Below are positions 3,009-51,308 of a stretch of DNA of 59,176 nt, piece after piece. How positions within the stretch are numbered: the stretch's first letter is position 1; each line of letters starts with the position of its first letter. The notes below the pieces were generated by a model. It did no database searches and was not told the DNA's origin. It saw only the letters and a program-made list of their open reading frames with translations. The position numbers and the translations under genes are program-made. The stretch is from a virus. The DNA is taken from the IMG/VR virus record IMGVR_UViG_3300007513_002695, positions 1-59,176 of that record; one strand, 5' to 3'.

Positions 3009-4827
<1,819 letters not shown>

Positions 4828-5567: not shown

Positions 5568-6125
5568 TTATCTAAAGCCAACACCTAGTGCGCCCATAGC
5601 GACGCGACCTTTTTTACTACGTGCCGGCTTATTATCACCATACACCCAGGATGAATCACTGTAAACTCTTCCCTCAGATCCAAACATTGACCTAATTTCA
5701 CGTCGGACGGCTTGGCGGACCTTGTTCTCAGCGACAGACTGGCCCCTCTCTTTTCTCATTCTGAGAATCTCTCTCTTGAGCATGGCCTCATCTATCTCAA
5801 CAATCTCATCTTCGCCATCCTCTGTGATTTCAAAAGCATCGAGGGGCGGTGCAATATCAACATCTCCGGGAGTTTCGCCGTCGCCGCCTCTTTCAGAAAG
5901 GCTGCTGAGCCATTCCTCTTCTTCCTCCGGAGACACTTGGCCCCCATCAAGATTAACACCGTCTTGTTCAGAAAGTTGACCTTTTCCATATTGAAGATCT
6001 CTCTCTCCGGCAAGTGCAGAATCTTCATGATAGCTTCTATTTGAAGCTTCATTTAGCATACCGCTTGATTGGTTCCCGGGAGTAACTCCTGCAAGGGCAG
6101 CAAGCCTATCAGCATTAAATCTCAT
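5568..6125 (-). CDS. Acidic virion- or core-type protein, 185 aa
   Basis: The ATG at 6125 (MRFNADRLAALAGV) has AAGGAG nine bases upstream, so the in-frame TTG further up is less likely. The middle is very acidic (runs of Glu, GDVDIAP, EDGEDEIVEIDEA). It is followed by a charged helix and AVRREIRSMFGSEG, which fits the recurrent R-x-I-R tag pattern, and it ends in a basic, Gly-rich tail (KKGRVAMGALGVGFR). Composition suggests a scaffold/core or decoration protein; no family is recognised. Confidence 0.6.
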   Translation of the reverse strand: MRFNADRLAALAGVTPGNQSSGMLNEASNRSYHEDSALAGERDLQYGKGQLSEQDGVNLDGGQVSPEEEEEWLSSLSERGGDGETPGDVDIAPPLDAFEITEDGEDEIVEIDEAMLKREILRMRKERGQSVAENKVRQAVRREIRSMFGSEGRVYSDSSWVYGDNKPARSKKGRVAMGALGVGFR

Positions 6126-6179
6126 TATCTTAGTCTCCTTAGTAGACAATATTAAATATACACGTCAACTAGATTTTTC

Positions 6180-8247: not shown

Positions 8248-8518
8248 TAAATCTATCTCTCCTTTCAGCAAGCGATCTTAAGATAAGACCTGTTCCGGTA
8301 ATTTCTTTATAATAATTAATAATATTCTTTTCAAATTTATTTAAATTTTGCTCTTTGGTTTTAGGATCTCTTGTTGAAAAATTCTTTCTTAGCTTGGGCG
8401 GAAGACCTTTCATGACTTCTTTTTTTACTGTAACCCAGTCATCACAGTTGCTAGTATATGTAGAGACAAATCGAACTTCTTCAAAAATTCTTTCTTTATC
8501 TTCTACGCTAATTGTCAC
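8234..8518 (-). CDS. Hypothetical protein, 94 aa
   Basis: Begins with GTG one base from the stop of the giant polyprotein gene and overlaps the next gene by 14 bases, so it is translated within a coupled series. It is charged and helical (WVTVKKEVMKGLPPKLRKNF, EQNLNKFEKNIINYYKEI). No motif identified. Confidence 0.55.
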   Translation of the reverse strand: MTISVEDKERIFEEVRFVSTYTSNCDDWVTVKKEVMKGLPPKLRKNFSTRDPKTKEQNLNKFEKNIINYYKEITGTGLILRSLAERRDRFNGFE

Positions 8519-11500
8519 TATATTATCTCCCTGATCATTCTTCTTAGCGCTTCAGAGATATTCTCTTCTTCTGACGCCTCCAAAGATTTGACGACCGCCT
8601 TTGGGTCTGGGAAAGAAGATTTCTTAACCATTTTTATAAAATCTTTTCTGTCAGCTTCATTATCCAAATCAATTCCAGAAGTTACCAATTTTTTAAGAGG
8701 ATTCCCAGTTAGCTGGGACCTTATTCCATAATTTCCTCCTCTGAAGTTTCTAAAATAAACGGATCCAAGTGCATCAGGGAAATCAAATATCTTAGTTGAT
8801 CTGTCATTTCCAACGGTTATTTTATAGTCTGGGTGAAGATGAAACAAACCTTTTCCCTTTACTTGAACAAGCCCAGCTTTTTTAAGCATATAGTATTTTC
8901 GAAGAATTTCTGCAGAAACTTTGTAAACTGCTAGAAGGGCACCCTTTATCTCTCTATCTCCGACAGTAATTGGATTATCATTTAGAACAGGTTGAACAAT
9001 GTCCACGTATTCATCTCTAGAAATCTTTCTCAACATGCTCTCTATTTTTGGAGTAGGGCTATTAGCTCGATAGGAATTGATCGCTTTTCTAACTTTTTCA
9101 AGTCTCTTCTTCACCTTCTTTCGAGAGGGATCTGCATTAATTAGATTTGCTATATCTTGATTTTGAGGTTTTGGGTTGGTAGCTAGAAACTCGCCCTTAT
9201 CAAAATCATAGGCAAGTGTAGGCTCACCGGCTTGAGCGTTGGGTAACTTGATCTCAATACCAAGCTTCTCAGGAAGACCCTTTTCGTTGATATCTACCGT
9301 TGGAATATAAATATCAGAGACTGAATTATCTTCTCCGCCGGAAACCGCAGCCCCGGAATCTTCGAGTTGTTTAAGAGAAGCAAGCTCATACTCATACCCA
9401 GCTTTCCGCTGACCACCTGTAACGCCTGCGATTCCAAACAAGATGAGAAGATTTGAATCAACCAAATAATATGCTGTATAAGATCCGCTTGTATTTTTCC
9501 CCTCGAGAGGGGCAAGTTCTCTAACCTGTCCAGCGTGCCCAGGAGAGAGAATATCATAAAGGTTGTTCATCAATAAAGAGAAGTCATGCTTATCTTGTGA
9601 GCCTGACTTTATTCCAAATCTCATTAAACCGAGGGTAGCACTACCCCCAATAGATTTTTCAAAATCTGATCCTAAAAACTCATTAGAAGAAAGTATTTTT
9701 TGAATAACTTTTGTTTTAGCTTTCCAAGTCTTTGCAGAGTTAAACTCGTCTGCTTCAGGCCCAGTCTCCTCCTCCTCCTCCTCTTCAGGAGAGATTAGTG
9801 TATCTTTTCCTATTTCAATATCAACTGAAACATCTTCCTCTTCTTCAAATAGAACAGTCCTTATCATTTTTCTTAAACTGTTTTCTGACACACTCTCTAT
9901 CCTTTTTGATTTAATATACTCCACAGCTTCTTGCGCAGCACTCCTGACTCTCTCTGACTTAGAGCCAAGCCTATTACCAATATAGGTTTCAAATCTATCC
10001 AGAGCCTCTCTGAATTCATCTGCGTTAGATTCTAGCATGTAATCAACAAGTTGATTAAAGGTTCTAACTGTATCCTTTGGAACTGTAATTCCAATCAGCG
10101 GGAGATAATTATCGGGATCAATGATCCTTCCCTCGAGATTCTCTTTACCCCCTATTCTCTCTCTCCAGCCGCCAGGAAAAGCAACCGTGTATTTAATTAC
10201 CTTGTCAGGCGAAGATTCTCTCTCACCTTTTATTTTTGCAAGTAGAGATAGCATCAGCTTATGATACTCTCCTTTTACTTCTCCTTCTCCCCCACCAGAA
10301 AGTTCCCACGCTGTATCTTCAATGCTGCGACTTTTAAATAGATCTACCTGATAATACCTCCCATCAAGATCAATCATGATGGTAGCTGCCTGCCCTCCTG
10401 GTAATTTCATAACCCTTGGGATTCCAGAAACAAGCTCGTCCCTAAGATAAGGTAGACCATTCAATCCGGCAACAAGGGTCGGAAGATCAGGTTCGCTAAC
10501 AACAAGGTCAACATCCCCGATCTCTTTTTTATTTGTTGCAGTGCTTCCGGCAGGTAGATAATCTAGCCCCAAAGGTTGTAAAACATTTCTCTCAACCTCG
10601 CTTGTTATTTTGTCTGCTACCTGTCTCGATATTCTTTCATCTGTAGTTACAGGCGGGCCTGTTGGGCGACCCCTTTCGTCCCTTGGTCGGAAAGCATTTC
10701 CTCCCTCAATAACTAACCTTTCAGATAGTACAGGAAAATATTTATCAATCTTCTCAGCCCTGTTATTATTATGATTAGATCGACTTCTATAGTCTTTAAG
10801 AGACTTTTCAGGATCTAGCTTGTTTCTTTTTGCAAGTCTGCCCATGGCGGGACCACCCATGCTATTGGCAATTCCGTATGCTATGGCGCGCCCCCTGTCA
10901 GTTTGCCAGCGCTTTCCTTTTTCTCCAAACCCTCTAATTTCATCCTCTGCGGGTAGTGCAGTCACATTCAACCAAGCTTTAAGTTGCTTTCCTTGATTTG
11001 CCCGATTGCTGGCAAATCTTTTCATTGACTCTTTCCAGCCAGGAATATTATTATAACAGTGCTTACTCTTGCAATCGATAGACTTTAGCTCGGCTACGGT
11101 CATTCCAGTTTCCCTAACATCATCATCTGTCATTACGTCGTATAATTTAGGCAAGCCATCTGAAGCAAAGTGACCTATTCCGACGGTTCCTCCATCAAGT
11201 GGGAAAACATCATCCCATCTCTTTCCTGATACTAGCGGTGCTTCTCCTCTAATACAATCAGCATCAGGGCACTTTGCAATAACTTTGGCAAGAATCTTCA
11301 ATGCAAGATTTCTATCGAAGCCTGAAACATCTCCGGTAGCTACAACTTCTGGAGAATAGTCGGCATCAGATGAGCTATCAGCCTCTAAGTCAACTGCTTC
11401 ACTTAGGCTTAAAACAGTATGTTGAATTATCTCATTTAGCATCTCTTCAACATCTTCTTCCTGTGGGTCACTTCCCGGAAGAGAAGCCTTTCCGAAACCT

Positions 11501-12801
11501 TCGCGGCCCATGGACTTGCCAAAAAACCCTCTTAGTCTGTTGACAGGAGTAAACAGTCCAGTAAGCTTATATGTCTTGTTGTTGTATGTAAAAACTATCC
11601 CTTCAGTTGCACGCGTAAGTAGATCCTGATTAGATTCCATTCTCGCAAGAGCAACCCGGATGCCTTCGAGTGTCTTCTCGTCAGCAAGAATCTTTCCTTG
11701 ATCAAATGCTGACTGAGCATCTTTTATAAATCCTAGAAGATCTTCATGGTTTCCTGCTGTTAAAGCAAGATCCAGCTTATCAATAATTGTAACCCCGAGC
11801 CTCTGGATAATCTCTTCAAGGGGAATTATTGCTTCTTGCACAATTCTGGCTTTGCTTTTATCTAATGCCCTAAAAGTCTGATACTCTTCGGGAGTTATTT
11901 TCTTTTTTAACTTTAGCGCAATCTTTCCCTTTCCGGTCATAAATCGATCTGCAACGTCTGGAACGAGAGTTTTGGGTATGAAAGAATACTTCTTTTCAAG
12001 AAAGCTCTCAACTCGTGATTTGACATAGTCTCCAACAGTTGCACTCTTTACATCTAGGCCCGCTTCAGAGACAACTCTTTCAAGATCTTTTTCGAGATTT
12101 TCAATCTCTTCATCGTCGATCTCCAGTCCTTTCATTAGCTTTGCAGTTGGAACTTTATCCATAGTAAATGCTTCAGTAGACGCTTTTTTCATCTCTTCTT
12201 CAAATGCTGACAAGGCATCTCTACTGACATCTTCGTCTGTAAGGGGTATGGCTTTGACTGTTCGAAGGGAATCTGTATCATAAAGAATTGTATTGGGATT
12301 CTTAGAGACCATGATCTGCGAAGCTATGACAACCTCCCCATTTCTAAACAATGCATCTTGGTACGGAATAGCTACAGGTTCAAGTGCCTCGTATGCAATG
12401 GCAAATCCATCAGCAATGTTTGATCTGTCACCCACATAAGTAGTCATAATCTCCTCAAGGCTCATCCCGCCGCCCTTGGACTTTGACCTAATTGCTTCAA
12501 GGCGTTTCTCTTTTGCAGACTGACTTTGAAGATCCATTTTCGTAAAAAATCTTAACTGTCCGTCAACAACTGTAAATGCAAGAAATTGCCCATCCATCTT
12601 TTCCTGGACGTTCTCTAGCTTTCCTTCGAGAGCAAGTTTTCCAATTTCTATAATATCTGAAATTGGCATTGAAAGCTCTTCATATAAATTGTAGATATGT
12701 GCCTCTTCTCCCGGAGAAGATGAGGGTGTAGCTTCTTGAGACTCTAGTTTTACCTTATGGTAATATTCTTTAATGACGCTTGGCGGAATAATAATAGCCA
12801 T
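8518..12801 (-). CDS. Giant multi-enzyme protein: ligase-like, lysozyme-like, nucleotidyltransferase and nuclease domains
   Basis: 1427 residues with four separable domains. (1) About 40-425: a covalent-nucleotidyltransferase (ligase) pattern with EKMDG at 67-71 (K68), FRNGEVVIA at 152-160, EGIVF at 400-404 and YKLT at 411-414. (2) About 490-690: GGTVGIGHFASDG at 537-549 recalls the TIGIGH signature of T4-type lysozymes, with E520 as candidate catalytic acid. (3) About 740-900: AGSTATNKKEIGDVDLVV (751-768) plus YYQVDLF gives a Pol-beta-type nucleotidyltransferase with D763, D765 and D820. (4) About 1020-1420: SDIYIP (D1163) and GIEIKL (E1183, K1185) fit a PD-(D/E)xK nuclease. Acidic linkers containing LRKMIR (975-981) separate modules, and the C-terminus is LRRMIREII. 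Probably virion cargo, perhaps proteolysed. Confidence 0.75.
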   Translation of the reverse strand: MAIIIPPSVIKEYYHKVKLESQEATPSSSPGEEAHIYNLYEELSMPISDIIEIGKLALEGKLENVQEKMDGQFLAFTVVDGQLRFFTKMDLQSQSAKEKRLEAIRSKSKGGGMSLEEIMTTYVGDRSNIADGFAIAYEALEPVAIPYQDALFRNGEVVIASQIMVSKNPNTILYDTDSLRTVKAIPLTDEDVSRDALSAFEEEMKKASTEAFTMDKVPTAKLMKGLEIDDEEIENLEKDLERVVSEAGLDVKSATVGDYVKSRVESFLEKKYSFIPKTLVPDVADRFMTGKGKIALKLKKKITPEEYQTFRALDKSKARIVQEAIIPLEEIIQRLGVTIIDKLDLALTAGNHEDLLGFIKDAQSAFDQGKILADEKTLEGIRVALARMESNQDLLTRATEGIVFTYNNKTYKLTGLFTPVNRLRGFFGKSMGREGFGKASLPGSDPQEEDVEEMLNEIIQHTVLSLSEAVDLEADSSSDADYSPEVVATGDVSGFDRNLALKILAKVIAKCPDADCIRGEAPLVSGKRWDDVFPLDGGTVGIGHFASDGLPKLYDVMTDDDVRETGMTVAELKSIDCKSKHCYNNIPGWKESMKRFASNRANQGKQLKAWLNVTALPAEDEIRGFGEKGKRWQTDRGRAIAYGIANSMGGPAMGRLAKRNKLDPEKSLKDYRSRSNHNNNRAEKIDKYFPVLSERLVIEGGNAFRPRDERGRPTGPPVTTDERISRQVADKITSEVERNVLQPLGLDYLPAGSTATNKKEIGDVDLVVSEPDLPTLVAGLNGLPYLRDELVSGIPRVMKLPGGQAATIMIDLDGRYYQVDLFKSRSIEDTAWELSGGGEGEVKGEYHKLMLSLLAKIKGERESSPDKVIKYTVAFPGGWRERIGGKENLEGRIIDPDNYLPLIGITVPKDTVRTFNQLVDYMLESNADEFREALDRFETYIGNRLGSKSERVRSAAQEAVEYIKSKRIESVSENSLRKMIRTVLFEEEEDVSVDIEIGKDTLISPEEEEEEETGPEADEFNSAKTWKAKTKVIQKILSSNEFLGSDFEKSIGGSATLGLMRFGIKSGSQDKHDFSLLMNNLYDILSPGHAGQVRELAPLEGKNTSGSYTAYYLVDSNLLILFGIAGVTGGQRKAGYEYELASLKQLEDSGAAVSGGEDNSVSDIYIPTVDINEKGLPEKLGIEIKLPNAQAGEPTLAYDFDKGEFLATNPKPQNQDIANLINADPSRKKVKKRLEKVRKAINSYRANSPTPKIESMLRKISRDEYVDIVQPVLNDNPITVGDREIKGALLAVYKVSAEILRKYYMLKKAGLVQVKGKGLFHLHPDYKITVGNDRSTKIFDFPDALGSVYFRNFRGGNYGIRSQLTGNPLKKLVTSGIDLDNEADRKDFIKMVKKSSFPDPKAVVKSLEASEEENISEALRRMIREII

Positions 12802-12802: not shown

Positions 12803-13648
12803 TTATCCTCTTATAATCCCTCTAATGTAGGCTCTAAGATAAACTTCGTCTTGTCTAGAAGGCTGTGTGTCATCTTTAAACCCCAAGAGTATTTGAACAA
12901 TTTGATCTTTTTCATCGCTATTGAGAAACGGCGGGAGGTATCTCTTAGCTTCTTCGGCTGTCTCAATAGAAGATGCTAGATCTCTAACACGAGTACCTCT
13001 AATTGTCTGCCTTGAGACAACCTCGTCGTCCTCAAGATCCTCACCTTTACTAGCATAAAAATCTTTTAGTGCCTCTTGAGCCTCCACCTCGCCTTGCGCC
13101 ATTAGCTGATCAAGCTTCTCAGTGTAGTCATCGGGACTAGTCGGAACAGCACCCCCAAATTGAATTTTACCTATCTGAACATGATCTTTGAACTTTGGGC
13201 TTCTCATGTATGGGCGCATCGAGTTGGCGTCTCCGTAGATTGTTACCTTTTCTATCTCACCGGGATCAGAAACAAAGTCCTCTAGTGTCTTGAAGATCGC
13301 TGTAACGGGTGCACGAATCGATACCAGATTCCCCTGCTCATCTTTTGCCTGACTTTGAATGAGAAATACCTCAACCTCCGGGATTCTCTCTAGAGCAGTT
13401 TTATATATGTTAAAAATACTTTGAGCAACCTGCTCATCATATGTTCGCCCTGAATCGCCGATTCCTCTAAACTTTTGTCCCGACTTTAAGGGCTGGCCCT
13501 TCTTTCCATACCGAGTCGGTTCGAGCTGCTGCATACCATAAAACAGGTACACCTTGTCGTTATCTCTGATAGCATCTGCTAATTTTGCAAAGTGACCTGT
13601 CGTAAAGGGTTTAAACCCGCCACCGTATAGTCCTAGTTTTGTACCCAC
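12803..13648 (-). CDS. NMNAT/CoaD-like nucleotidyltransferase with C-terminal tag
   Basis: 281 residues starting GTG behind GGAGG. The N-terminus (LGLYGGGFKPFTTGHFAKLA) carries the T/HxGH signature of the HIGH-type nucleotidyltransferases that make NAD, CoA or CDP-derivatives. The matching C-terminal motif is SRQTIRGTRVRDL, similar to the (I/V)SxTxxR loop. The last residues (YLRAYIRGIIRG) match the recurrent tag helix. The substrate is unknown: nicotinamide mononucleotide adenylylation is plausible but not shown. It lies two bases from the multi-enzyme gene, so the two are co-expressed. Confidence 0.82.
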   Translation of the reverse strand: MGTKLGLYGGGFKPFTTGHFAKLADAIRDNDKVYLFYGMQQLEPTRYGKKGQPLKSGQKFRGIGDSGRTYDEQVAQSIFNIYKTALERIPEVEVFLIQSQAKDEQGNLVSIRAPVTAIFKTLEDFVSDPGEIEKVTIYGDANSMRPYMRSPKFKDHVQIGKIQFGGAVPTSPDDYTEKLDQLMAQGEVEAQEALKDFYASKGEDLEDDEVVSRQTIRGTRVRDLASSIETAEEAKRYLPPFLNSDEKDQIVQILLGFKDDTQPSRQDEVYLRAYIRGIIRG

Positions 13649-20181: not shown

Positions 20182-20895
20182 TTATCCTCTCATTGCTCCG
20201 TGTATTTTTTCTGCTCGAGAAAACCTGCTGCCAATTACATTCCAATTTAGCTCTTTCATCATAGCATACACATAAGTCTTTCTATCATTTAAATAATCTC
20301 TATAGTAAGAGTGCTCCCATGCATCCATAACAATTACAGGAAAAATTCCAATCATGTGGTTTAAGCTATGCAAGTCAACAACAGTGTTTACATATCTTTG
20401 AAGATACATGTGATATCCTGTTACAACCCAGCCGTTCCGTGCAGAAAGAGAGCATGCTATAAAATCTTTTTGCCAAGCGTCAAAAGATCCAAAGTCTCTT
20501 TCAAGTCGCATGTATGGAATAGAGTCCATTGCTATTTCGCTTCTAAGATCACTAATATTTGCAAAATAAAGCTCATGAAGCCAAAGCGCATTAAGATTAT
20601 AAGACTCATCTATTTTAAGAGATCTAAATGCTGAGTGATTTAAATTTGCCTCTTCTCTGTTGGCGGTATCAAGCTCAGCGCTTACTCTATTAAAAGCATT
20701 AACATAGCTGTCGTAAAGCTCTTTATGAGAAACCTTGTTTTTCTGACTAAGAAACTCTGTCTTTAGATCAAACGGTTTTGTCTGAGCAACATAGTTCTCT
20801 TTTAGAACTTTAGAGTCAGAGTGCCCAGGGTTGCTATCAATCCCCAGAGACTCTCTTATAATGTTTGCTACTTCTAAATTTTTTATATCTGACAT
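20182..20895 (-). CDS. sod: Fe/Mn superoxide dismutase with N-terminal tag extension
   Basis: 237 residues. It converts superoxide to oxygen and hydrogen peroxide. The four metal ligands are visible: H57 (SHKELY), H107 (LWLHELY), and D191 and H195 in VMDAWEHSYYRDY. The core covers about 35-230. Residues 1-34 form an extra extension with LEVANIIRESLGI, matching the tag helix seen on other enzymes here, which suggests packaging. Upstream is a small unknown gene, downstream an acidic tag protein. The choice of Fe or Mn cannot be read safely from this sequence. Confidence 0.93.
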   Translation of the reverse strand: MSDIKNLEVANIIRESLGIDSNPGHSDSKVLKENYVAQTKPFDLKTEFLSQKNKVSHKELYDSYVNAFNRVSAELDTANREEANLNHSAFRSLKIDESYNLNALWLHELYFANISDLRSEIAMDSIPYMRLERDFGSFDAWQKDFIACSLSARNGWVVTGYHMYLQRYVNTVVDLHSLNHMIGIFPVIVMDAWEHSYYRDYLNDRKTYVYAMMKELNWNVIGSRFSRAEKIHGAMRG

Positions 20896-21660: not shown

Positions 21661-22580
21661 TATTTTTTATCTTCAGGTTTGACGGACTGTGTAGTCTCGC
21701 TTTTCTTTCTAGTCTGTCTCTTCTTAGTGACCTTAGCTTTTTCCGGTTTGTCAAACAGGTCTTCAACATGTTTGTTTTTGGGAAGTTGAAAACCAGCTGC
21801 TTTCTTGTGGCCGCCTCCGCCGAATTTCTTTGAAATCTCTGAAACGTCTACAGCTTCGTGAAAAGCTCGGAGGCTTACTTTTGTCTCCTTGGATTCATGA
21901 TCCCAATACCATATCATGGCAAAGTCGCAGTCCGGAGCAAGACGAGCACCGATCTCTGACATCCAGTGAGATGAATTTACAACAAGAACATCTTTGCTAT
22001 CTAGCTTTCTCTTAGAAGCTTTTTCACATACCTTCTTGACAACAGTCTTGCTATATGCTAGAATATAAGAACCCCGCTTGCATGCGTCGTCAAAGACTGA
22101 ATCATCTTCAAACTTTTCAAACTCTTCAAACTCAAATGGCACCATGTCAAATGCTGCACTAAACTCTTTTGAGTATTCAAGCTCCCACTTCCACAAATCT
22201 CTATCTTGAATGTATTTAATAAATTTAGGAGGCTCTTTTCCTGGATGAAAAAATTCCCAAGATAAAATTGCACCAGATTTTGTCATATCAAAATGAGTGT
22301 TAGCAATATCATGTAGCTCGACCATCGCCGACTTATGGTGATCTATTACAAGAAGAGAATTAGAATCTTCAATCATCTGCTTTGTAGTTGCATTTCCAAA
22401 CGAAAAATCCAAGATTACAACGTTTTTTCCTTTGACATTTGGCGGAGGCGTACCGTGCTTGCATGGATGATACTCAGCTCGGTTTCCAAGCAATTTCCAT
22501 GCCGAGTAGGCAGCACCAAAACCATCAGTGCAATCTGCATGATAAATGACGCAGTTTACAGATGTTGGTTCGTTAATCAT
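21660..22580 (-). CDS. DHH/DHHA1-family phosphoesterase
   Basis: 306 residues. Motifs in order: HADCTDGFGAA at the N-terminus, VVILDFSFG, VIDHHKSA (the DHH motif), QDRDLWKW, and the C-terminal DHHA1 signature GGGGHKKAAGF. These enzymes hydrolyse short oligonucleotides or cyclic dinucleotides, as in the nanoRNase and RecJ families. A basic low-complexity tail follows (KAKVTKKRQTRKKSETT). It could recycle nanoRNA or destroy nucleotide second messengers used in antiphage defence. Sequence alone does not decide which. Confidence 0.9.
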   Translation of the reverse strand: MINEPTSVNCVIYHADCTDGFGAAYSAWKLLGNRAEYHPCKHGTPPPNVKGKNVVILDFSFGNATTKQMIEDSNSLLVIDHHKSAMVELHDIANTHFDMTKSGAILSWEFFHPGKEPPKFIKYIQDRDLWKWELEYSKEFSAAFDMVPFEFEEFEKFEDDSVFDDACKRGSYILAYSKTVVKKVCEKASKRKLDSKDVLVVNSSHWMSEIGARLAPDCDFAMIWYWDHESKETKVSLRAFHEAVDVSEISKKFGGGGHKKAAGFQLPKNKHVEDLFDKPEKAKVTKKRQTRKKSETTQSVKPEDKK

Positions 22581-23148
22581 CTCTTCCTCTTTGATTCATG
22601 AAATCATGGTATTCCCAGCACCGAGGCTCATACAAATCAGAGCCACCTACAGTAATCTCTGCGCCGGAATACTTTCTATGTGTATAGTATGCATCCTTCC
22701 CTGTAACAGTGCACACAGCTGGGCAGATTTCTATTTTAGTCGCCCAGGGCATCATGTCTCTAATTTCTTCAAAAATATTTCCTGTTGCAGAAAGCTGAAG
22801 AGAAGAGACAACAATGGACATTCCCTCTCTAAACAGCTTCAATAATGCGCCTGCAACACCATCTATCATAAATGCTTCATCCACAGCAATAACATCGAAT
22901 GTCTCTCCGGATCCATAAATATATTCTAACATATCTTCTCCAGAGTTTACACCAATTCCTGGAAGTCTTCCTCCTGAATGTGTGGCAATTTCAACATCAG
23001 AATATCTATCATCCATAATAGGTTTAAAAGCTATTATTTTTTTATTTTGATACCTGTATCTGTCAACTGCTGCTAGAAGCCTAGTAGTCTTAGATCCAAA
23101 CATTGGCCCAGTAAAAATAATAAATTCAGGATCTAAAGTAATTTTCAT
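22573..23148 (-). CDS. tdk: Thymidine kinase (type II, TK1-like)
   Basis: Phosphorylates thymidine to dTMP. I choose ATG 23148 (MKITLDPEF), one base past the upstream stop and six bases after GGAAGAG, over the upstream ATGs. The P-loop is GPMFGSKT, the Walker B-like region is VIAVDEAFMIDG, and SLQLSATG matches the conserved G(L/Q)xxD/TG lid region. The zinc site is CPAVCTVTG plus EPRCWEYH, where some ligands differ from the standard C..C/C..C set. Part of the nucleotide-salvage cluster. Confidence 0.9.
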   Translation of the reverse strand: MKITLDPEFIIFTGPMFGSKTTRLLAAVDRYRYQNKKIIAFKPIMDDRYSDVEIATHSGGRLPGIGVNSGEDMLEYIYGSGETFDVIAVDEAFMIDGVAGALLKLFREGMSIVVSSLQLSATGNIFEEIRDMMPWATKIEICPAVCTVTGKDAYYTHRKYSGAEITVGGSDLYEPRCWEYHDFMNQRGRDD

Positions 23149-23149
23149 C

Positions 23150-23566
23150 CTATGCTCTTCCATAGTCATCTTCTATTCTCTCGGGGAGATCCTGATTATT
23201 GTTTCCTATTTCTATAATCTCACAATCTGTTATGGCTTCAATCCTATACGGACAACAAGACTGAACTAGCAGAGTGTTACCCGACTTCATCCTTTTCACT
23301 TGAATTGGATGGGCAACAGCATCAGATATAGAAAGCTCATTTCCAAAAGTTACTTCTGCTTCTCCGGAAACTAAAAAAAGAACCTCATTTTTTAACTTAT
23401 GATATTTAAAACTAGTCCTATGACCAGCATTTATATAAAGTAGCTTACCATGAACACCGTCAAATCCCGACCAAGATTTCTCACTCCCCCAGGGTTTTTC
23501 TTTTGTGACGGGGGGCCCTTTAGTTATCCAGCTAGATTTTACATGTTTTGAAATTTTATATGACAC
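23150..23566 (-). CDS. Cupin, mannose-6-phosphate isomerase type II-like
   Basis: 138 residues that match the cupin domain of bifunctional phosphomannose isomerases: KPWGSEKSWSG, then LLYINAGHRTSFKYHKLKNE, VLFLVSGEAEVTFG, and IEIGN with RIEDDYGR. The metal ligands His/His/Glu are in SFKYHKLKNE. It probably isomerises a sugar phosphate or sugar nucleotide for a surface-glycan or DNA/protein glycosylation pathway, together with the neighbouring epimerase. Confidence 0.82.
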   Translation of the reverse strand: MSYKISKHVKSSWITKGPPVTKEKPWGSEKSWSGFDGVHGKLLYINAGHRTSFKYHKLKNEVLFLVSGEAEVTFGNELSISDAVAHPIQVKRMKSGNTLLVQSCCPYRIEAITDCEIIEIGNNNQDLPERIEDDYGRA

Positions 23567-24603
23567 TAATCATCTCCCGGCATTCTAAGTATGTGCGGAG
23601 TTCCCTCCAAATGACCAGAGGGTGTCTGAGTCCCCCATCTGGCAACAACTGAAATTTCTGATAATTTTCTAGCCCCCATATATGACATTCCGCTTCTTAT
23701 CCCTGATTGGAAATTTCTAATAATATTTCTTACAGGGCCTTTTACTGTAACAGTAGTTTTTACTCCCTCACCAACGGGCAGGTCATTACTATTTCTATTA
23801 TTTCTATCTACCATCGCTGCAGTTGAAGCCATGCCCCGAAAGACCTTATAATCTTTTCCGTTTGTAGTGATAGTTTCACCGGGAGTTTCATCAGTCCCAG
23901 ACAGTAAACTTCCCACCATAATAAAATCTGACCCTGCTGAAAGAGCCTTGACTGCATCCCCAGAGGATCTTATCCCTCCGTCAGCTATGATTTGTACTCC
24001 TAGTGTATCTGCAATTTCACAGCATTCAAGAAGACAAGTAAACATGGGGACACCATGACCAGTAATCACTCTAGTTGAGCAACAAGAGCCTCCACCAATT
24101 CCAACCTTAATACAATCTGCTCCCCACGCAGACAAATCGGCAACAGCGTCAGGTGTAGCAACATTTCCTGCAACTATATAAATGGAATCCCCAAATGTGT
24201 TCCTCATTACCCTGAGAGTATGTCTCATCATAGTGCTATGTCCATGTGCTATATCTACAATAAAATTTCTAGCTCCGGCAGCATACAGGGCACGGGCTCT
24301 TTTTAAATCTATTTCATTTACCCCGACTGAAACGAGACAGTCAGCACCAGAATCAACTACTTCTTTATATTCTTTTACTGCTTGTTCTATTGGGGTAAAT
24401 CTATGTAATGCACCGACAGCACCAGCTTTAAACATCTCAATTGCCATCTTTGGACCCGTAACTGTGTCCATATTAGAAGAAATAACTGGGACATCAAGAT
24501 TGATACTTCCAATCTGCGCTGACGTATCTAGTTCTGACCTAGACAGGCAATCTGTCATTTGCGGAACTAAGAAGACGTCGTTAAACGTATAATAGGTTTT
24601 CAT
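23566..24603 (-). CDS. IMP dehydrogenase / GMP reductase family protein
   Basis: 345 residues from ATG 24603, one base past the upstream stop. It begins YTFNDVFLVP as in IMPDH/GMPR. The catalytic loop is GIGGGSCCSTR with the reactive Cys, followed by IIADGGIRSSGDAVKALSAG and FIMVGSLLSG. There are no CBS domains. The flap residues near RGMASTAAM fit this superfamily. It either makes XMP from IMP (towards GTP) or converts GMP to IMP. Without alignment I cannot tell which. Confidence 0.9.
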   Translation of the reverse strand: MKTYYTFNDVFLVPQMTDCLSRSELDTSAQIGSINLDVPVISSNMDTVTGPKMAIEMFKAGAVGALHRFTPIEQAVKEYKEVVDSGADCLVSVGVNEIDLKRARALYAAGARNFIVDIAHGHSTMMRHTLRVMRNTFGDSIYIVAGNVATPDAVADLSAWGADCIKVGIGGGSCCSTRVITGHGVPMFTCLLECCEIADTLGVQIIADGGIRSSGDAVKALSAGSDFIMVGSLLSGTDETPGETITTNGKDYKVFRGMASTAAMVDRNNRNSNDLPVGEGVKTTVTVKGPVRNIIRNFQSGIRSGMSYMGARKLSEISVVARWGTQTPSGHLEGTPHILRMPGDD

Positions 24604-26607: not shown

Positions 26608-29600
26608 TTAGATGTTTATCTGTCTCATTTTATATGATGAAGTGCTACATCCCCACGATTCTGTAGAGGCAACTTCAGCAAGCCAAATCGTATAGAGCTC
26701 AGGAATAATTTTAAACTTTGTCCACACTCTAAGCCACTTACTTTCTGAGTTATTGTCACAAACTCTCATCTTATAGAAAACTTTTCCATTCTTAGTCTCC
26801 TTTTCATGAATCTCTTGTATGCAAAACCATACCACATCTTTCATTTTTCCAGAAAGTGATGTAATAGGGTCTAGATCAGACTTTCTAATCCTCTCCATAA
26901 TTCTTGGAGGAAATACCAGTGACTCATCAGCTCCGGACATTAATTCAACACTCATCCCTATTTTAGCAGACCTTGACCAGTCCTTTACTGAATCTGTCTC
27001 TACTATTAGACTTGGAACATATTCATTGACATAGCCTTGCTGCTTCATCAATTTTTTATAAGCAGTCTTTGTCATGCCATACATTCCTTTCTTTAGTTGA
27101 TCATAATTTCCAACAATAATATCATATAACTGCCTATGATTAGAAATCTCTTTGCTCTGCATCTCTGACAGGCTTGAAAAAGCCTCTACCTTGCACAAAG
27201 AATCAAAACATGTCTTATTCATCTTAGAAGGTTTCCAGCCCCCTTCTTCGTTAAAAAGAACATCAGATAAGTCCCTATACGGCCTGTTAATCATAATTTC
27301 TTCTACGGCAGCATCACCGACGCCCTTAATTGCTGTAAGGGGAGGAACAAACCCTTCTCGATCTTCACTATACACCCAGACATCGGACGATGCATTGATG
27401 TCAGGTGGGAGAATTGTATATCCTAGTGATTTAATTTCTGATATAACTTTTCCGAATTTATTAGTACCATTCTGAGTCTGAAGGCATGTTGCTAGCCATT
27501 CCTTTTCATAGTAGGAGTGAAGCCATGCAGAGTAATAAGAATCAATGGCGTAAGACACAGCATGAGACTTGTTGAAGCCATACCCAGAAAAGAATTCAAT
27601 TGTCTCATATAGCTTCTCTGCCTTGGCTTGATCCATTCCAGATACCTCGACAGCACCGCTAACAAACTTCTTTCGAAGATCAATTCTCTCCTGAACTTTC
27701 GCTGCATTTGAATCAAGAGACTTCTTAACCAAAGTTTTTCTCATTTTATCAGATGCACCCTTGTCAAAGTTGGCGAGCTTCTGCGCCAAAAGCATGAACT
27801 GCTCCTGGAATGAAATAAATCCATATGTCTCGCTTAGAATCTCCTCAATAACAGGATGATCATATTTAATCGGATTTCCATCCTCAACAGACTTCTTAGC
27901 TCTCACATACTTCCGATGAACACCGGCTGCCAGGGGTCCGGGACGATAAATTGCAGTAATAGTTGCTAGCTCTTCAATGGTTCTAGGTTTAGCAGCCATG
28001 CAAAAATTTCTTGCACCCTGTTGGGTAAACTGAAACACTTGAACAAATCTTCCTCTGTGATAGACATGCTCCCAGACCCTCTGGTCATCCAGGTTGTTAT
28101 ATCTACAATTCATGTTATCATCAAAGAATTTATGAATATCGTCAAATGTAGGTGAAGGATTTCCTTGTTTTCTTAGAATTAGCCTAATACAATCTTCAAC
28201 CATTTTAAGAGTTGTCAGCCCTAAGAAATCAAACTTAAGAAAACCATTTGGCTCAAGGTGTCTAAAATTCATTCCTTCAGACCACGGCGTCTGTAACTCT
28301 CCTCGGACCTTAATCACTGGCATATATTTTTCAAGATCAGGGCAGATTAAAACACCGCCAGCATGTCTTCCAATTGATCTTGACTCCATAAATAGATTTT
28401 GAACATGCTCTCTTACTTTGGGATATTCATCCATGAACTCAACATACTTAGATGAATACCTCATACAATCTTCATGTGTAAGGACATACGTCGATCTTTC
28501 TTCGTGATCTCCCATTGCTTTGTGCATGACATCTTTTTCTAAAGTATTTGTCATCGAATTGACTTCACTAAAGTCAATCCCATAAAACTTTGAAACGTCT
28601 TTAATAAGAGATTTAAGCTTCAGTGTATTAAAGTTAGAAACGGGAACAACGGACTCTTCTCCAAAAAGTTGTCTTGAGGCATCGATTAATACATCCCTGT
28701 CTCCTGCATCAGTATCAATATCAGGCCACCCAGCCTTTGTTCGGTGGAGAAATCTTTCCCACAAGAGGCCGTATTTAATTGGATCTGTAGTCGTAATCCC
28801 CAGGAGATAATTTACCAAAGACCCGGCGCCAGATCCTCGACCTGGTCCGATAATAGTTTCCTTAGACGCAAGATCAAATACCTTTGTCATAGTCAAAAAG
28901 TAATTTTCAAACCCAAGGTATTTAATATCTTCAAGCTCCATTTTAGTTCTTTCAACATATTCTTGTTTTACATGTAGTCCCTCATCTATCAGTGATTGCC
29001 TGACTCTTTTTACAAGTTGATTAAAAGCAGAATTACCAGGTTCATCAAATGTTGGAAGCTTAGCCTCTTCATCAAACCAAACCTCATCACACTGATCCCA
29101 CGCAATATCGTGTGTCCTTTCAATAGCATCGCAAATTAATTGATCTTTACCTTGATAAAAGTCATAATCTGGAACGTGCTTTTTATATTCTTCCCACATT
29201 TGCTCTGCATTCTTGGGATAAAGTTCACACTTTAAATCTTCAAATGCAGGAAGTGAGGGCATGTCATCACCTCTTGCGCCCATTCTCCCGAGCTTTCGAT
29301 AAAGCTCACGAGCTTCCCACATGTCACGACTATAATAATGACTATCAGCAGTTGCAACAAGCGGAATCCCGGTTTTTTCATGCAGTGAGATAAGATGCTT
29401 ATTCGTCTTATGCTGCATCGATAGAGAATTAAACTGAATCTCAAGATTAAAGTTCTTCTCACCAACAGCATCTACGAATCTATCAGACATGTTTTCAAGA
29501 TCTCTAAGGATTTCTACATTAGATTTTCCAAGAGCCTCTCCCCTTGCGATCAAAGAAGCAGGATAGCCCCCGATACACGCTGTGCTTACAATCAATCCTT

Positions 29601-30227: not shown

Positions 30228-30938
30228 TTATATCGTAATATCAGAAGAAGAATGACAATCTTTCTCAGGTACTGGGTCTCCATTTACGACATCAAACGTA
30301 TTGACGGAAAGACCTGGATATTCTTCTGAACAAAGCGTAAGAATTGCCCCTAAGTTTCTCTTAGAGTCATCATAGAAAAATATCTCTCGAGGGGAGTGAT
30401 CCTCAACATATTTTCTTACAATATTGAGCTTATCTTCGGGTTTACCCCCACTATCACCAACCGTGTGAACAGGTATATTTTTTAACCCTTTGCTCTCTAA
30501 AAAGTCAGATATATCTTTTCTATTTTGTTCTCCTGCCCTGGCAGTGACAATTGCAACTACACTAGACTCCGCTTCGCTTGCTTTCCTAATAAGATCAATT
30601 AAAGATTTTATTTCAACTGGATTAAGGACAGATTCAAAATTATCATAGTTAACAACGTCTTTTTCTCTTTGAGGAAAGGGCTTCTGTCTATAAATTTCAA
30701 AAGATTCTGAATCCATTGACTCAGTCTCCCCGACCTCTCCTGTGTCAGGATCGACGAATGTAACCTTCACTACATTATCTGTGTGGGCAAGTGTATCATC
30801 AAAATCAAAAAAATGAAGAGTAATATCGCCAGGGCGATATAAGCCTTCTTCTGAAAAAGGTGACTCAGAAACTAGTCTTATTAGTTCCTCTCTAATAATT
30901 TTCTCAATCAAGCTTCGGGATATTTTTGTTGATGCCAT
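30228..30938 (-). CDS. HAD-superfamily phosphatase with N-terminal tag
   Basis: 236 residues. The N-terminal 26 residues contain SRSLIEKIIREELIRL, the clearest form of the recurrent helix. The enzyme part begins with HFFDFDDTL (nucleophile D45, acid D47), later AIVTARAG (motif II) and FFYDDSKRN (motif IV). It resembles polynucleotide-kinase 3'-phosphatase or 5'-nucleotidase types of HAD enzyme, but the substrate is not evident. The tag suggests that it may be packaged in the virion. Confidence 0.85.
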   Translation of the reverse strand: MASTKISRSLIEKIIREELIRLVSESPFSEEGLYRPGDITLHFFDFDDTLAHTDNVVKVTFVDPDTGEVGETESMDSESFEIYRQKPFPQREKDVVNYDNFESVLNPVEIKSLIDLIRKASEAESSVVAIVTARAGEQNRKDISDFLESKGLKNIPVHTVGDSGGKPEDKLNIVRKYVEDHSPREIFFYDDSKRNLGAILTLCSEEYPGLSVNTFDVVNGDPVPEKDCHSSSDITI

Positions 30939-34981: not shown

Positions 34982-35785
34982 CTATTTCTGCACTTCTGGG
35001 ACCCAATGAGTAGTCCTACCATCTCTGGTCTTTTCCTTTATAACAGGATTCCCAAGGGGATCTTGCTTTTGATTATACACAATGAATCTCTCTCCGTATT
35101 CGCCAGATTCTCCATTAAATCCCTTATAGGTTCTAATTGTTGCCCCACCCGATGCAAAGCTTTCTTTCATAACAGCATGAATATTTGTTTTTAAGCTGAC
35201 TAGCTCTTCATCTGTAATGGAAGAAATAATCCTGTGGGGTGAAAGCTTTGAAAGATAGAGACATTCAGCTTTTATATAATTTCCTACACCAGCTATAATG
35301 CTCTGATTCATTAAAACTTCGGGAAGTGTTTTTTTCTCATGTCTTCTCATTATCTTTAAAAAATCAGAGTCAGGAAGTGTTGAAGCTAGCATATCAGGTC
35401 CCAGTGATCTAAGCTTTGAAACCAGCTGCTGACTTTCATTTACAAGCTTTATTGTTCCAAAATTTCTCTGATCATTAAAGAATACAGACCCATCGTCTAA
35501 AACGAATTCAATTCTACTATGTTTTTCTCTTTTTTCTGACCAGCTTCCGGTCATTCCTAGCGTATTCCAGATAGACCATTTATTTTTTAGTATAATAAAA
35601 ATAAATTTTCCGTGGACGCCCGGGCCTGCTATTTCGACAGGTAATTGATTGCACAGGTCAGAAAAATTGTCAGGAAGGTTTTTCTGATATCTTCCTCCTA
35701 AGATGTTGATCTGCTTTAACACTCTTAGAGATATCCTTTCTGCAAGAGACTCGCCAATTCTTTTTACTTCAGGCCCTTCTGGCAT
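34982..35785 (-). CDS. Zincless Fpg/Nei-type DNA glycosylase
   Basis: 267 residues. Begins MPEGPEVKRI with the catalytic Pro and Glu of base-excision glycosylases. NTLGMTGSW and VFFNDQRNFG match the middle, and PEVLMNQSIIAGVGNYIKAE is the helix-two-turn-helix with its conserved Asn. The C-terminal finger lacks all four Cys (RFIVYNQKQDPLGNPVIKEK, then GRTTHWVPEVQK), the zincless form known from NEIL1 and plant or viral Nei. It excises oxidised bases. It has its own promoter, divergent from the plus-strand gene. Confidence 0.92.
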   Translation of the reverse strand: MPEGPEVKRIGESLAERISLRVLKQINILGGRYQKNLPDNFSDLCNQLPVEIAGPGVHGKFIFIILKNKWSIWNTLGMTGSWSEKREKHSRIEFVLDDGSVFFNDQRNFGTIKLVNESQQLVSKLRSLGPDMLASTLPDSDFLKIMRRHEKKTLPEVLMNQSIIAGVGNYIKAECLYLSKLSPHRIISSITDEELVSLKTNIHAVMKESFASGGATIRTYKGFNGESGEYGERFIVYNQKQDPLGNPVIKEKTRDGRTTHWVPEVQK

Positions 35786-35787
35786 TT

Positions 35788-35816
35788 TTGAACTTTATCT
35801 CCTATGTGTGTATTAT
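35788..35816 (+). promoter_or_regulatory. Sigma-70 type promoter for the plus-strand phosphoesterase gene
   Basis: TTGAAC (35788-35793), 17-base spacer, TATTAT (35811-35816), with AAGGTAAGGT as RBS before the ATG at 35840. The -10 overlaps that of the opposite promoter. Confidence 0.6.
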
Positions 35817-35840
35817 ATAAAAGGTAAGGTCTTTGTTCAA
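35812..35840 (-). promoter_or_regulatory. Sigma-70 type promoter for the glycosylase operon
   Basis: On the minus strand: TTGAAC (35835-35840), 17-base spacer, TATAAT (35812-35817), then AGGAG before the Fpg/Nei ATG. The two promoters share their -10 bases, so polymerase can occupy only one of them at a time. Confidence 0.62.
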
Positions 35841-37286: not shown

Positions 37287-37342
37287 CGACGACTCCTGCA
37301 AATAAGTATACAGTGCAGAGAGTTTGCTGGTATAATTTTATA

Positions 37343-38143
37343 TTAAAGTTCTTCTCTAATAATCTGGATAAGTCGGGACTCTTTAATTGACATTGACGCG
37401 TCATAGGCATCATTCTTTATGTTTGAAAGTTTTTCAAGACTTCCGTTTCTTCTAAGAACCTTGAAGGCGATATTTCCCGTTGAGTACTGACCCTTTCTAG
37501 TTCTCAACCCTGACTTTCTCATTCTTCTTATCTTTTCCTTCACCTTTTCTGCTAGCTCAATAGTCTCTTCAGGACTAGATTCTAGCTTCTCAAGCTCAGC
37601 AATTTGTCTCATAATCCCAGCTGCTTTCTTCTTGACAGAATCGAAGCTAATCTTTTCACCCTGCTCATCCGGAGGAACTCTAATCCACTCTCCGTTTAAA
37701 ACTGAATATAATCCTGTGGACATATGCTCTTCACCCATGTTCTCAACGTATATCTCAACATCATATCCTTTGGCCTTGATATCGTGTCTAAGATTCCAAA
37801 GTGCAGCAGCAGAGTTAAAGTATCCCTCTACAAGGTCCTGGTCTTCGTCTACTTCTGAAAAATTAACTACGACATGCAGGTCAACATCAGAATATTTTGA
37901 CCAGTTATAGTTTGCCAGTGAGCCGGTTAGTCGTATATCTTCTGGCCGGACATCTATCGAGAGCCCTTCAGCAAAGTCGTCAGCTACAGCCAGAAGAGCT
38001 TCTCGAACGTCAGGTCGCATGGTATTATCAGAATCCCACACTCTTTTTTCCAGCGTGTCATTAAATGAAAATCCATCGACGCTAACATCTTGTGCTGCTA
38101 TTTCTCTTACGAGTTTCCGCAAGAGTCTCTTGGTGCCAGACAT
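37343..38143 (-). CDS. Pol-beta-type nucleotidyltransferase with tags at both ends
   Basis: 266 residues. Residues 4-15 (TKRLLRKLVREI) and the last 15 (IKESRLIQIIREEL) both fit the recurrent tag. Between them is a minimal nucleotidyltransferase: LTGSLANYNWSKYSDVDLHV with G74, S75, D86 and D88, and the third acid in GYDVEIYVE. A helical C-terminal part (SVKKKAAGIMRQIAELEKLE ...) follows. Proteins of this kind transfer nucleotides to RNA, proteins or small molecules; the target is unknown. Confidence 0.8.
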   Translation of the reverse strand: MSGTKRLLRKLVREIAAQDVSVDGFSFNDTLEKRVWDSDNTMRPDVREALLAVADDFAEGLSIDVRPEDIRLTGSLANYNWSKYSDVDLHVVVNFSEVDEDQDLVEGYFNSAAALWNLRHDIKAKGYDVEIYVENMGEEHMSTGLYSVLNGEWIRVPPDEQGEKISFDSVKKKAAGIMRQIAELEKLESSPEETIELAEKVKEKIRRMRKSGLRTRKGQYSTGNIAFKVLRRNGSLEKLSNIKNDAYDASMSIKESRLIQIIREEL

Positions 38144-49194: not shown

Positions 49195-50115
49195 TCAACT
49201 TTTTGATCTTTTAACATCTTCTAGAAGAGAAATAAGATCTAAGCCAGCACAATCTATTTTGTTTTTTGTGTAATTATAATGATTTACAAAACCAGAAAAC
49301 TTTCCACTCACAACATCTCCAACAACGCCTGTATCAAGCGATCCATTGGATCGAGTCGGACACACTAGTGGGATTCCCGTTCCAGTGTGAATAGCCTTCC
49401 AAAGGGCCTTAAGTGCTTCAATTTGAACTGAATAAAAATCTAAAAACGGAGACAGTTTTCTACCATGAACCCATCCCGCTTCCTGGATAGGTCTTTCACC
49501 AAATCCGTTTTTTACATACCAGTCTTGATACTTTGTATAGTATGCATTGCTTATTTCGACCCCAATTCCCTTTTTATTTCCAGACACGTTTCCGGCATGC
49601 CAGGCACCGTGCTGCGTATCTAAAAGCTGGTAAATTGTTCCGTCGTTGTCAATACAAAAGTGAACTGAGACTTTTCTCCTGTTTAAAACTTTTGCGCATG
49701 ATTCAGAGCTTAGACAGACATCCCAGTGATTGACGAAAACATTTGGCTTTCGATCTGGTTTTCCAGAATAGTCATAATAAGTTCCGGGTTTCATCTTTAG
49801 TCCCCCGTTCTCATTCCACAAAACTACCCTGGGCCACTCTATCTCTACAAGCTTTGAATTACAAACTATAAAACTATGATCCTTTTCCTTGGGACAAAAA
49901 TTTCTATAAGTCCCGATATCAGACTCCCTCTCTGTCCAGATTCTACGATAAGTAGTGGGGCCACAAAGACCATCAGCTACAAGCCCTCTTTTCTTTTGCC
50001 ACTTTCTAATTTCACCTACAAGATCTTCATCATGATATACTGCACCAAACCAGTCCGGCTCCCAGCCGAGAGAATCTGATGAACTTTTATTGTAGAATAC
50101 TTTATCAACAGTCAT
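49195..50115 (-). CDS. N-acetylmuramoyl-L-alanine amidase endolysin
   Basis: 306 residues. The N-terminal peptidoglycan-binding domain is visible (LVGEIRKWQKKRGLVADGLC, then GPTTYRRIW). The amidase_2 domain has FVNHWDVCLSS (H130), VHFCIDNDGTIYQLLDTQHG, AWHAGNVSGNKKGIGVEISN and the late KIDCAGLD. Zinc is held by His/His/Cys. It cuts the bond between MurNAc and L-Ala for host lysis. It lacks a signal peptide, so it probably relies on the holin-like protein encoded at 18744. Confidence 0.9.
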   Translation of the reverse strand: MTVDKVFYNKSSSDSLGWEPDWFGAVYHDEDLVGEIRKWQKKRGLVADGLCGPTTYRRIWTERESDIGTYRNFCPKEKDHSFIVCNSKLVEIEWPRVVLWNENGGLKMKPGTYYDYSGKPDRKPNVFVNHWDVCLSSESCAKVLNRRKVSVHFCIDNDGTIYQLLDTQHGAWHAGNVSGNKKGIGVEISNAYYTKYQDWYVKNGFGERPIQEAGWVHGRKLSPFLDFYSVQIEALKALWKAIHTGTGIPLVCPTRSNGSLDTGVVGDVVSGKFSGFVNHYNYTKNKIDCAGLDLISLLEDVKRSKS

Positions 50116-51308
50116 TTTAACCTCTTTTCAATTAAATACATAGATTTTAACCAGGAGGCAATCTGATCGTTAACAGGGGGGTCATACTCTCCCTCGGGCC
50201 ATCCGCCATGTGAGGTGGGTTTATCAAGATGAAGATTTTTCTTATTTGCCTTCTGATAGGAGTCTTCTGGGTATGAACCCTTCACAGTTTCATATATCCC
50301 TCTGTCAGTCAAAGACATTATTTGATCATACACTTTTTTCATAAGTTTTTGAGAAGCTTGTTTTCCTGGGACGTTTTCAAGATATTCTTTAAACTGATCA
50401 GATAAATCTACAAGCTCGGGAGAAACCTTACCTCTAAGAATATCTAGAGACTTTTCTTTTCCATATTTTTGTAATAGATTTTCAGCAAATTCATGTGCGT
50501 AAGCATCGATCTCTATGTTGGATCTTAAATACTGCGATCTATCTTCTGAACTTGGTATTTCCCCTTCTTTTTCATACTGTGACTTGGCGATTTGTCTAGA
50601 AACCCCCTGATTTCTTCTTCTCTTGTCAATTTGTCTGGCATGAATGTATTCATGTCTCACAATATTTCCAACTATTTTTGATATGGTAGAAATATCAACA
50701 TCCCCAGGATTAAAGTCATCGGAAACTGGAATCATATTGAGATACATTACAAATCTACCTCTGCTACTAACACCCTGGGAGCCACCTACAACTAGTCTAT
50801 TTGGATACAGCCGGTGGTCTGATCCCATAGGAAGCTTGAGCTTGGTATTAAAATCAGGCTCAGCTGACCTAACAGCTATGGTGATCGGAATCCCGGAGGA
50901 CACCAGAAAGTTTTGTATTGCGCTCCCTAGAACTTCAGCAGCAGGGGTCTGATTATGCCATTCTCCTCCGACACTCACCATATCAGCTTCGTCAGGAGTA
51001 TTTTCATGTGTCCAAAATTTTGAATCAGCTATCGCTTTCTCAAGCTTAGAATAGAAAAAATCAGGCAAATGAGATGCTCTCTTGATTTCTTCAGATTCTT
51101 TTATAATTTCTCTGATTAGCAGCCTGATGTTTTTAATTGGTTCAGAGTTTTCATGCATTCCCCTGGCTCTTCTAGCTGCATCCGCCTTTTCCTTGCTAGC
51201 ATGGCAAGATGCCTTCTCCCATTTGCCCGATTTTTTCTTTTGCAAAACATACGATCCTGATTTTCCATCAGACTGCTTGCACTTTTGCTTCTTTACTTTG
51301 TAGGGCAT
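50112..51308 (-). CDS. Zinc metallopeptidase-like protein with internal tag
   Basis: 398 residues. Residues 1-50 form a small basic domain (YKVKKQKCKQSDGKSGSYVL, KKSGKWEKASCHASKEKADA) common in phage structural fusions. Residues 58-73 are the tag (IKNIRLLIREIIKESE). The zincin domain has IVRHEYIHARQID with HExxH at 219-223, and NIEIDAYAHEFAE may supply the third ligand. It overlaps the amidase gene by four bases. It may act on phage proteins, or on cell-wall or envelope proteins after delivery. Confidence 0.75.
   Translation of the reverse strand: MPYKVKKQKCKQSDGKSGSYVLQKKKSGKWEKASCHASKEKADAARRARGMHENSEPIKNIRLLIREIIKESEEIKRASHLPDFFYSKLEKAIADSKFWTHENTPDEADMVSVGGEWHNQTPAAEVLGSAIQNFLVSSGIPITIAVRSAEPDFNTKLKLPMGSDHRLYPNRLVVGGSQGVSSRGRFVMYLNMIPVSDDFNPGDVDISTISKIVGNIVRHEYIHARQIDKRRRNQGVSRQIAKSQYEKEGEIPSSEDRSQYLRSNIEIDAYAHEFAENLLQKYGKEKSLDILRGKVSPELVDLSDQFKEYLENVPGKQASQKLMKKVYDQIMSLTDRGIYETVKGSYPEDSYQKANKKNLHLDKPTSHGGWPEGEYDPPVNDQIASWLKSMYLIEKRLK

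Follow-up and report, generated by a model that had tools for sequence, protein, structure and literature searches.

What kind of protein would carry several unrelated enzymes in one chain in a virus, and where would it act? The question is raised by a 1427-aa ORF on the minus strand of the window, the whole 59,176-nt stretch of DNA analysed here, a 59-kb fragment derived from an uncultured virus. The ORF runs from 12801 to 8518, with an ATG start and without internal stops. The first-pass annotation, made from the letters alone, had read in it four enzyme-like domains (a ligase-type KxDG nucleotidyltransferase, a lysozyme-like domain, a Pol-beta nucleotidyltransferase and a PD-(D/E)xK-like nuclease) separated by acidic linkers with a recurrent tag, and had suggested a virion-packaged polyprotein. 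The residues singled out there (K68, EGIVF at 400-404, TVGIGH at 539-544, GS at 752-753, D763, D765, D820, D1163, E1183 and K1185) are all found where they had been placed. Coordinates of the features discussed below are given in the Table.

Relatives and domain architectures

Searches of databases were informative only with profiles built from relatives. The whole 1427-aa protein had only sub-threshold matches in Pfam, PHROGs, NCBIfam and PDB; no relative was seen in 50,697 phage records by whole-protein tblastn, nor in a scan of bacterial and archaeal genomes. Matches to DUF2884, 40S S3a, NusA and PP_kinase_N were put down to chance, each being short, under the cut-off or away from the active site.

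Five full-length relatives, L001-L005, with 51-73% identity to the window protein were found in IMG/VR; the named catalytic residues are identical in all five, the TVGIGH region excepted. Three of these relatives (L001, L004 and L005, 1143-1198 aa) do not have window residues ~465-694; thus, the lysozyme-like module has been inserted into the window protein. The insert is missing from L002 and L003 as well (1429-1439 aa), but these carry ~285 extra N-terminal residues, homologous to the product of the separate upstream gene, which in the window is separated from the ORF by a single base (12801/12803). In the coding frame of the three shared domains dN/dS was 0.02-0.14 wherever computable, while the linkers were looser, with dN/dS of 0.07-0.5 (several pairs were saturated at synonymous sites); modules 1, 3 and 4 are each maintained under purifying selection.

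Profile searches with module 1 produced 27 loci with at least six architectures. We observed (i) nucleotidylyltransferase, ligase and family-X polymerase (PolX) in one chain (L014, L043), in L042 with the addition of a different C-terminal domain having a D...ExK-like motif; (ii) ligase and nucleotidylyltransferase (L016 and others); (iii) the latter pair with a ParB-like domain (L006, L034; PF08857 E 4.7e-4, below cut-off); (iv) the same pair preceded by an HExxH domain with no match in Pfam (L024). The upstream nucleotidylyltransferase gene matches phrog_3462 (E 0.0019), and its relatives match CTP_transf_like; in L002, L003, L014, L042 and L043 it forms the N-terminal part of the long chain. 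Gain, loss and fusion of modules (the insert, the nucleotidylyltransferase, the ParB-like domain) occurred exactly at the tag linkers.

Table. Features of the multi-enzyme ORF and of other tagged genes in the window
Feature	Coordinates	Strand	Remarks
Whole ORF, multi-enzyme protein	8518..12801	-	1427 aa; five full-length relatives
Module 1, covalent nucleotidyltransferase, RNA/DNA-ligase type (residues 30-430)	11512..12714	-	EKMDG 67-71, EGIVF 400-404, YKLTG
Tag/linker 1 (residues 451-469, VEEMLNEIIQHTVLSLSEA)	11395..11451	-	between modules; relatives have KIIMKMLSE|GG
Module 2, inserted TVGIGH lysozyme-like domain (residues 488-694)	10720..11340	-	absent in L001-L005; stand-alone relatives
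Module 3, family-X DNA polymerase / Pol-beta nucleotidyltransferase (residues 697-970)	9892..10713	-	GS 752-753, D763, D765, D820
Tag 2 (residues 973-987, ENSLRKMIRTVLFEE), then acidic linker	9841..9885	-	between modules 3 and 4
Module 4, probable PD-(D/E)xK nuclease (residues 1025-1399)	8605..9729	-	D1163, E1183, K1185
C-terminal tag (residues 1415-1427, ISEALRRMIREII)	8521..8559	-	PSSM 22.4 bits
HIGH-type nucleotidylyltransferase (NMNAT/cytidylyltransferase-like), separate upstream gene	12803..13648	-	C-terminal tag YLRAYIRGIIRG
Fe/Mn superoxide dismutase, N-terminal tag VANIIRESLG	20182..20895	-	PF02777 E 1.3e-18
Polynucleotide-kinase-like (HAD) phosphatase, N-terminal tag	30228..30938	-	phrog_415 E 3e-8
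Minimal nucleotidyltransferase, tag at both termini	37343..38143	-	PF01909; phrog_36119 E 8e-37
Tagged HExxH protein (HEYIH), putative metalloprotease	50112..51308	-	motif read directly; no Pfam support

Identity of the enzyme modules

Module 1 has the motifs of the covalent nucleotidyltransferase superfamily: in 27 sequences E-K-x-D-G, E-G-x-V and a downstream K were invariant or nearly so, with the G of EG conserved in at least 90%. Pfam RNA_ligase was matched by five of the 27 relatives (best E 2.2e-5). AlphaFold modelled L001, which is 1198 aa long, with pLDDT of about 85 in this domain; viral RNA ligases appeared as weak Foldseek matches to the model (E 2e-3 and above), the PDB matches listed for it being filled by PolX. 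These observations agree with the ligase-type reading of the KxDG motif. From sequence, the reaction may be RNA sealing, DNA sealing or adenylylation of something else.

The Pol-beta assignment of module 3 was not only borne out but sharpened to the DNA polymerase X type. The profile of the module matched pol lambda in PDB (E 0.0014) with GS and D-x-D aligned, as well as Repair DNA polymerase X chains (E 0.005), and Foldseek matched the L001 model to pol lambda and pol beta (E 2e-5 and above). The module has the GS...D-x-D motif, the third D and the palm fold of DNA polymerase X; D763, D765 and D820 are invariant in the window protein and L001-L005. We consider the family assignments of modules 1 and 3 highly secure.

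In module 4 the triad D1163, E1183 and K1185 is invariant in six of six sequences. In the L001 model, at low pLDDT, the D is at the start of a strand (933-941) and the E at the end of the strand that follows (947-953). No profile match was found, and no fold match among the Foldseek matches listed. The proposed PD-(D/E)xK identity is plausible given the invariant, strand-placed triad; judging from the triad, module 4 is probably a nuclease of this kind.

The TVGIGH region, a 230-residue insertion unique to the window protein among its homologues, interrupts the tag linker that joins module 1 to module 3. It has stand-alone relatives (L086/L088, L087/L091, L089 and L090), of which L086/L088 start with MIKLKNLLTE, L087/L091 carry the N-terminal tag KITRKQLRRLIIEQ, and L089 and L090 are membrane-anchored. 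Residues D531, D536, T539 and H544 (window numbering) are kept in L086 and L087; the position of the lysozyme Glu is occupied by C, Q or K in the window protein, L086 and L087, with Glu present only in L089/L090. E520 is not conserved either. No lysozyme family was matched in Pfam, NCBIfam or PDB, and a single-sequence structure prediction of the insert had pLDDT of 40.6, too low for reading the fold. Of the earlier lysozyme-like claim, what stands is that TVGIGH belongs to a real small family; GH24-type identity did not hold up: the catalytic Glu before the T-x-G-x-G-H hairpin is not conserved, and there is no profile match. Lysozyme activity of module 2 appears doubtful from these residues. 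The stand-alone relatives make up a small protein family around LDGGTVGIAHFA(S/V)(D/G)GL, in which Glu is at the lysozyme position in membrane-anchored members and not in tagged ones.

Tag helices and linkers

The tag is a helix of the form L-R-x-x-I-R-x-x-L/I located in acidic linkers. Such linkers, described already in the first-pass annotation, are found between modules 1 and 3, between modules 3 and 4 and at the end of the protein. In the L001 model tag/linker 1 is a helix within a low-confidence segment. The C-terminal tag also ends L001; it was not recognisable in L002-L005.

We scanned proteins with a tag matrix of nine positions, trained on window proteins only, at a threshold of at least 14 bits. 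Twelve window proteins reached the threshold versus 0.05 expected from shuffled proteins. The same matrix found three proteins in genome G002 and four in G013 versus 0.15 expected in each; no seeds were drawn from either genome, so these are independent tests. Tag matches were at termini in 10 of 14 cases in the window (P=5e-7, a value partly circular because the seeds came from the window), in 3/4 in G002 and in 5/8 in G013 (P about 0.007 each). The tags are non-random. None of the window polymerases, helicases, recombinases, reductases or chaperonins reached 14 bits; a helicase and an RNase H-like protein had internal matches only, at 11.5-12.6 bits.

Two observations were made on the side. 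In relatives of the tagged superoxide dismutase the start region ends with N-E-A/S; possibly, it is a virion-packaged SOD. Also, a small basic-cysteine module (YVLQKKKSGKWEKASCHASKEKADAARRA / KYCLxSKKxxKNLGCYxSKxxAxKRExQVQYFKH) is present at module boundaries of unrelated proteins: in the window at 50112-51308 (-), and in L019, L022 and L027.

Head genes, prohead protease and candidate cleavage motifs

No capsid or protease gene was found in the 59-kb window. Its close relative G002 is, as judged from gene lists, broadly collinear with the window and extends further, into a structural block of T4 type that encodes an S77 prohead protease (95403-96017) and a Gp23 capsid protein; S77 protease and T4-type major capsid protein (MCP) are also present in more distant relatives. 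In G002 the gene of the multi-enzyme protein is far from the head cluster. In Microcystis phage Mel-JY01 a ligase/nucleotidylyltransferase gene is ~2.6 kb from the terminase gene, with the protease and capsid genes a few kb off.

Behind the tag helices one often finds (I/L)xE, the cleavage signature of T4. Prohead-core genes adjacent to the protease open with a helix that is similar to the tag and closes with (I/L)xE: SALKGIVKECLVEILQE|G in G002 and IKPIIKQCIKEVLFE|E in G013. The neighbour of the Mel-JY01 protease has the helix start YQKIVQEVVREVIAE|N, ending VIAE|N, and the protease itself carries NVQKIIKE|S near its N-terminus. The likeness of these prohead-core helices to the tag is one seen by eye; in G002, L050 and L051 they do not reach the threshold of the matrix. 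The N-termini of MCPs carry QLLRE|S or ELLRE|A near the position of the T4 gp23 cut.

In the linkers (I/L)xE[AGSQNTED] occurs 2.6 times per 100 residues, ~six-fold more densely than in the three domains (0.43); the motif is loose, and its frequency in linkers equals that in shuffled linker sequence, hence the contrast with domains is partly one of composition. Near N-termini (I/L)xE[AGSQN] was observed 17 times in the window versus 8.1+-2.5 in shuffled sequences, 22 versus 10.5+-2.9 in G002, and 31 versus 19.8+-4.0, less than twofold, in G013. Only 3/8 N-tagged window proteins have the motif at residues 6-45.

Some features of these genomes deserve mention in their own right. The motif R-x-x-x-LAG(I/V/L) ends a T4-type scaffold-like protein (SRWAQLAGLK; ERMRILAGISKK) and recurs at the N-terminus of a 193-aa window protein (NADRLAALAGV...MLNE|AS) and its orthologues; it could be a second head signal (window 5568-6149 (-); G002 91913-93397; G013 98382-99362). 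Between the protease and capsid genes of Mel-JY01 (L085) there is, at 22429-23595, a gene of a hypothetical protein, whose C-terminal half is ADP-ribosyltransferase-like (YRAV...STTLNP...ESEIILPR) and reminiscent of T4 Alt. A bacterial PolIII-alpha-like polymerase and GroEL (window 26608-30174 and 3009-4634) occur alongside a T4-type head (G002); G002 also encodes DnaK and DnaJ-like chaperones (35081-38044).

Proposed function and alternative explanations

Our confidence is evenly balanced on the reading that we prefer as a whole: a polyvalent cargo protein of a T4-type bacteriophage that would be packaged by means of capsid-targeting-like tags, cut and injected. By binding to the prohead core, the terminal and inter-module tag helices would carry the protein into the head, where the S77 prohead protease would cleave it after (I/L)-x-E, either within the linkers or immediately past them. 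The cleavage would free the ligase-type nucleotidyltransferase, the family-X polymerase, the probable PD-(D/E)xK nuclease and, in the window protein only, the lysozyme-like module. The freed enzymes would enter the host with the DNA and could mend nucleic acid at nicks, gaps or ends, at a stage when the phage has yet to produce enzymes of its own. Packaging and cleavage, suggested by the tags, the protease and capsid of relatives, the linker (I/L)xE motifs and the starts of prohead-core proteins, we place at the same midpoint between acceptance and rejection; the injected end-repair function is a more tentative proposal.

Nothing need be packaged if the protein stays in the cytoplasm as a repair enzyme with several functions, for DNA or RNA, after the manner of bacterial LigD or the Phaeocystis globosa virus PolX-ligase; its ligase, family-X polymerase and nuclease would jointly process breaks during infection, and the tags would dock it to a replication or repair complex. 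Ligase, PolX and nuclease do make a coherent end-repair set, a viral PolX-ligase fusion has been proven biochemically (PMC5537341), and the distance of the gene from the G002 head cluster is in line with such a role. However, the tag is also on superoxide dismutase, a protein without a role in repair, whereas the replication and nucleotide-metabolism enzymes of the window do not reach the threshold and the two weaker matches are at internal sites; prohead-core proteins, on the other hand, open with similar helices. We regard cytoplasmic repair as rather unlikely. Still less likely is a polyvalent protein that is packaged but uses its tags for targeting alone, the chain being injected whole or cut by another protease, with its cell-wall and nucleic-acid modules acting as one. 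For known phage polyvalent proteins the predicted processing is by metallopeptidases within the chain and not by the prohead protease (PMC5512222), and L024 has a fused HExxH domain; yet the 1427-aa protein is without a metallopeptidase, (I/L)xE is denser in its linkers than in its folded domains, and a T4-type S77 protease is present in relatives.

One could also think of the tags as generic amphipathic linker helices with no targeting role, produced by drift and fusion of neighbouring cistrons. Near-touching adjacent genes, such as those with the one-base gap noted above, fuse easily, and the linkers evolve fast; but the tag is present on unrelated proteins in three genomes, at termini and far above shuffled expectation, and strong copies are missing from the replication enzymes, which makes this explanation very improbable.

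Returning to the packaged and cleaved cargo protein, one could speculate further that aquatic T4-type phages load a swappable enzyme kit via a portable tag, located at ends and between modules, as cleavable head polyproteins, for immediate genome repair and protection; we offer this slightly more cautiously than the end-repair function itself. The kit would include ligase, PolX, nuclease, nucleotidylyltransferase, polynucleotide-kinase-like phosphatase, superoxide dismutase and others. If true, the principle of T4 internal proteins would be generalised into a modular cargo system. Capsid targeting as in T4 and polyvalent proteins that are injected, both familiar as ideas, would come together in one rule readable from sequence, namely that the tag points to the cargo. 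One could then predict from sequence which enzymes uncultured aquatic phages package in their virions; injection by phages of enzymes for DNA/RNA end repair would be suggested, and a short packaging tag of a new kind, working also between domains, would become available.

Comparison with known systems

In T4 the CTS propeptides direct internal proteins to the core and are removed by gp21; Alt is processed at both termini (PMC9026906, PMC5694885). The tagged proteins resemble T4 internal proteins and Alt in their short terminal tags, putative propeptides often followed by (I/L)-x-E, with T4-type protease and capsid in relatives. The differences are that the T4 CTSs are N-terminal (Alt having a C-terminal propeptide as well), while here the tags are also between modules, and that the LRxxIRxxL sequence differs from the T4 CTS. 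On marine capsid-targeting tags we found nothing in the literature beyond T4 and giant-phage work.

The PolX-ligase of Phaeocystis globosa virus is likewise a virus-encoded fusion of a family-X polymerase and a ligase, but it comes from a eukaryotic virus, its ligase is of NAD+ type and C-terminal to PolX, and it has no nuclease, tags or insert (PMC5537341). A cytidylyltransferase-like protein of Mel-JY01 (PP395634, WWT39297.1) combines the same ligase-type module with a HIGH-type nucleotidylyltransferase. It has these two enzyme modules only, without PolX or nuclease. Bacterial LigD of the NHEJ pathway unites ligase, polymerase and nuclease/phosphoesterase in one protein, as here; however, its polymerase is of the primase (AEP) type and not PolX, its ligase and nuclease belong to other families, and it is not known to carry tags.

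The closest class is that of polyvalent proteins of phages and conjugative elements (Iyer et al. 2017, PMC5512222); for these, packaging, injection and processing by metallopeptidases in the same chain have been predicted. The window protein shares with them several unrelated enzyme domains per chain, shuffled between relatives; their lysozyme and ParB-like modules have lysozyme-like and ParB-like counterparts here, and an occasional late-gene or structural context is shared as well (PMC5512222). At least two disparate enzyme domains (ligase type and PolX type, at the sequence/fold level) and domain shuffling, features of the class, are present. In the parts of that survey consulted, a ligase-type module is unreported, and Pol-beta nucleotidyltransferases are minimal versions confined to proteins of conjugative elements, whereas here Pol-beta is of PolX type; tag helices and candidate prohead-protease motifs are found here, with no metallopeptidase in the chain (PMC5512222). 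The initial statement that no described protein has this combination holds for the 50,697 phage records and the papers searched, but not for the class, described since 2017. Polyvalent proteins are a known class; new here are the set of modules and the tag helices between them.
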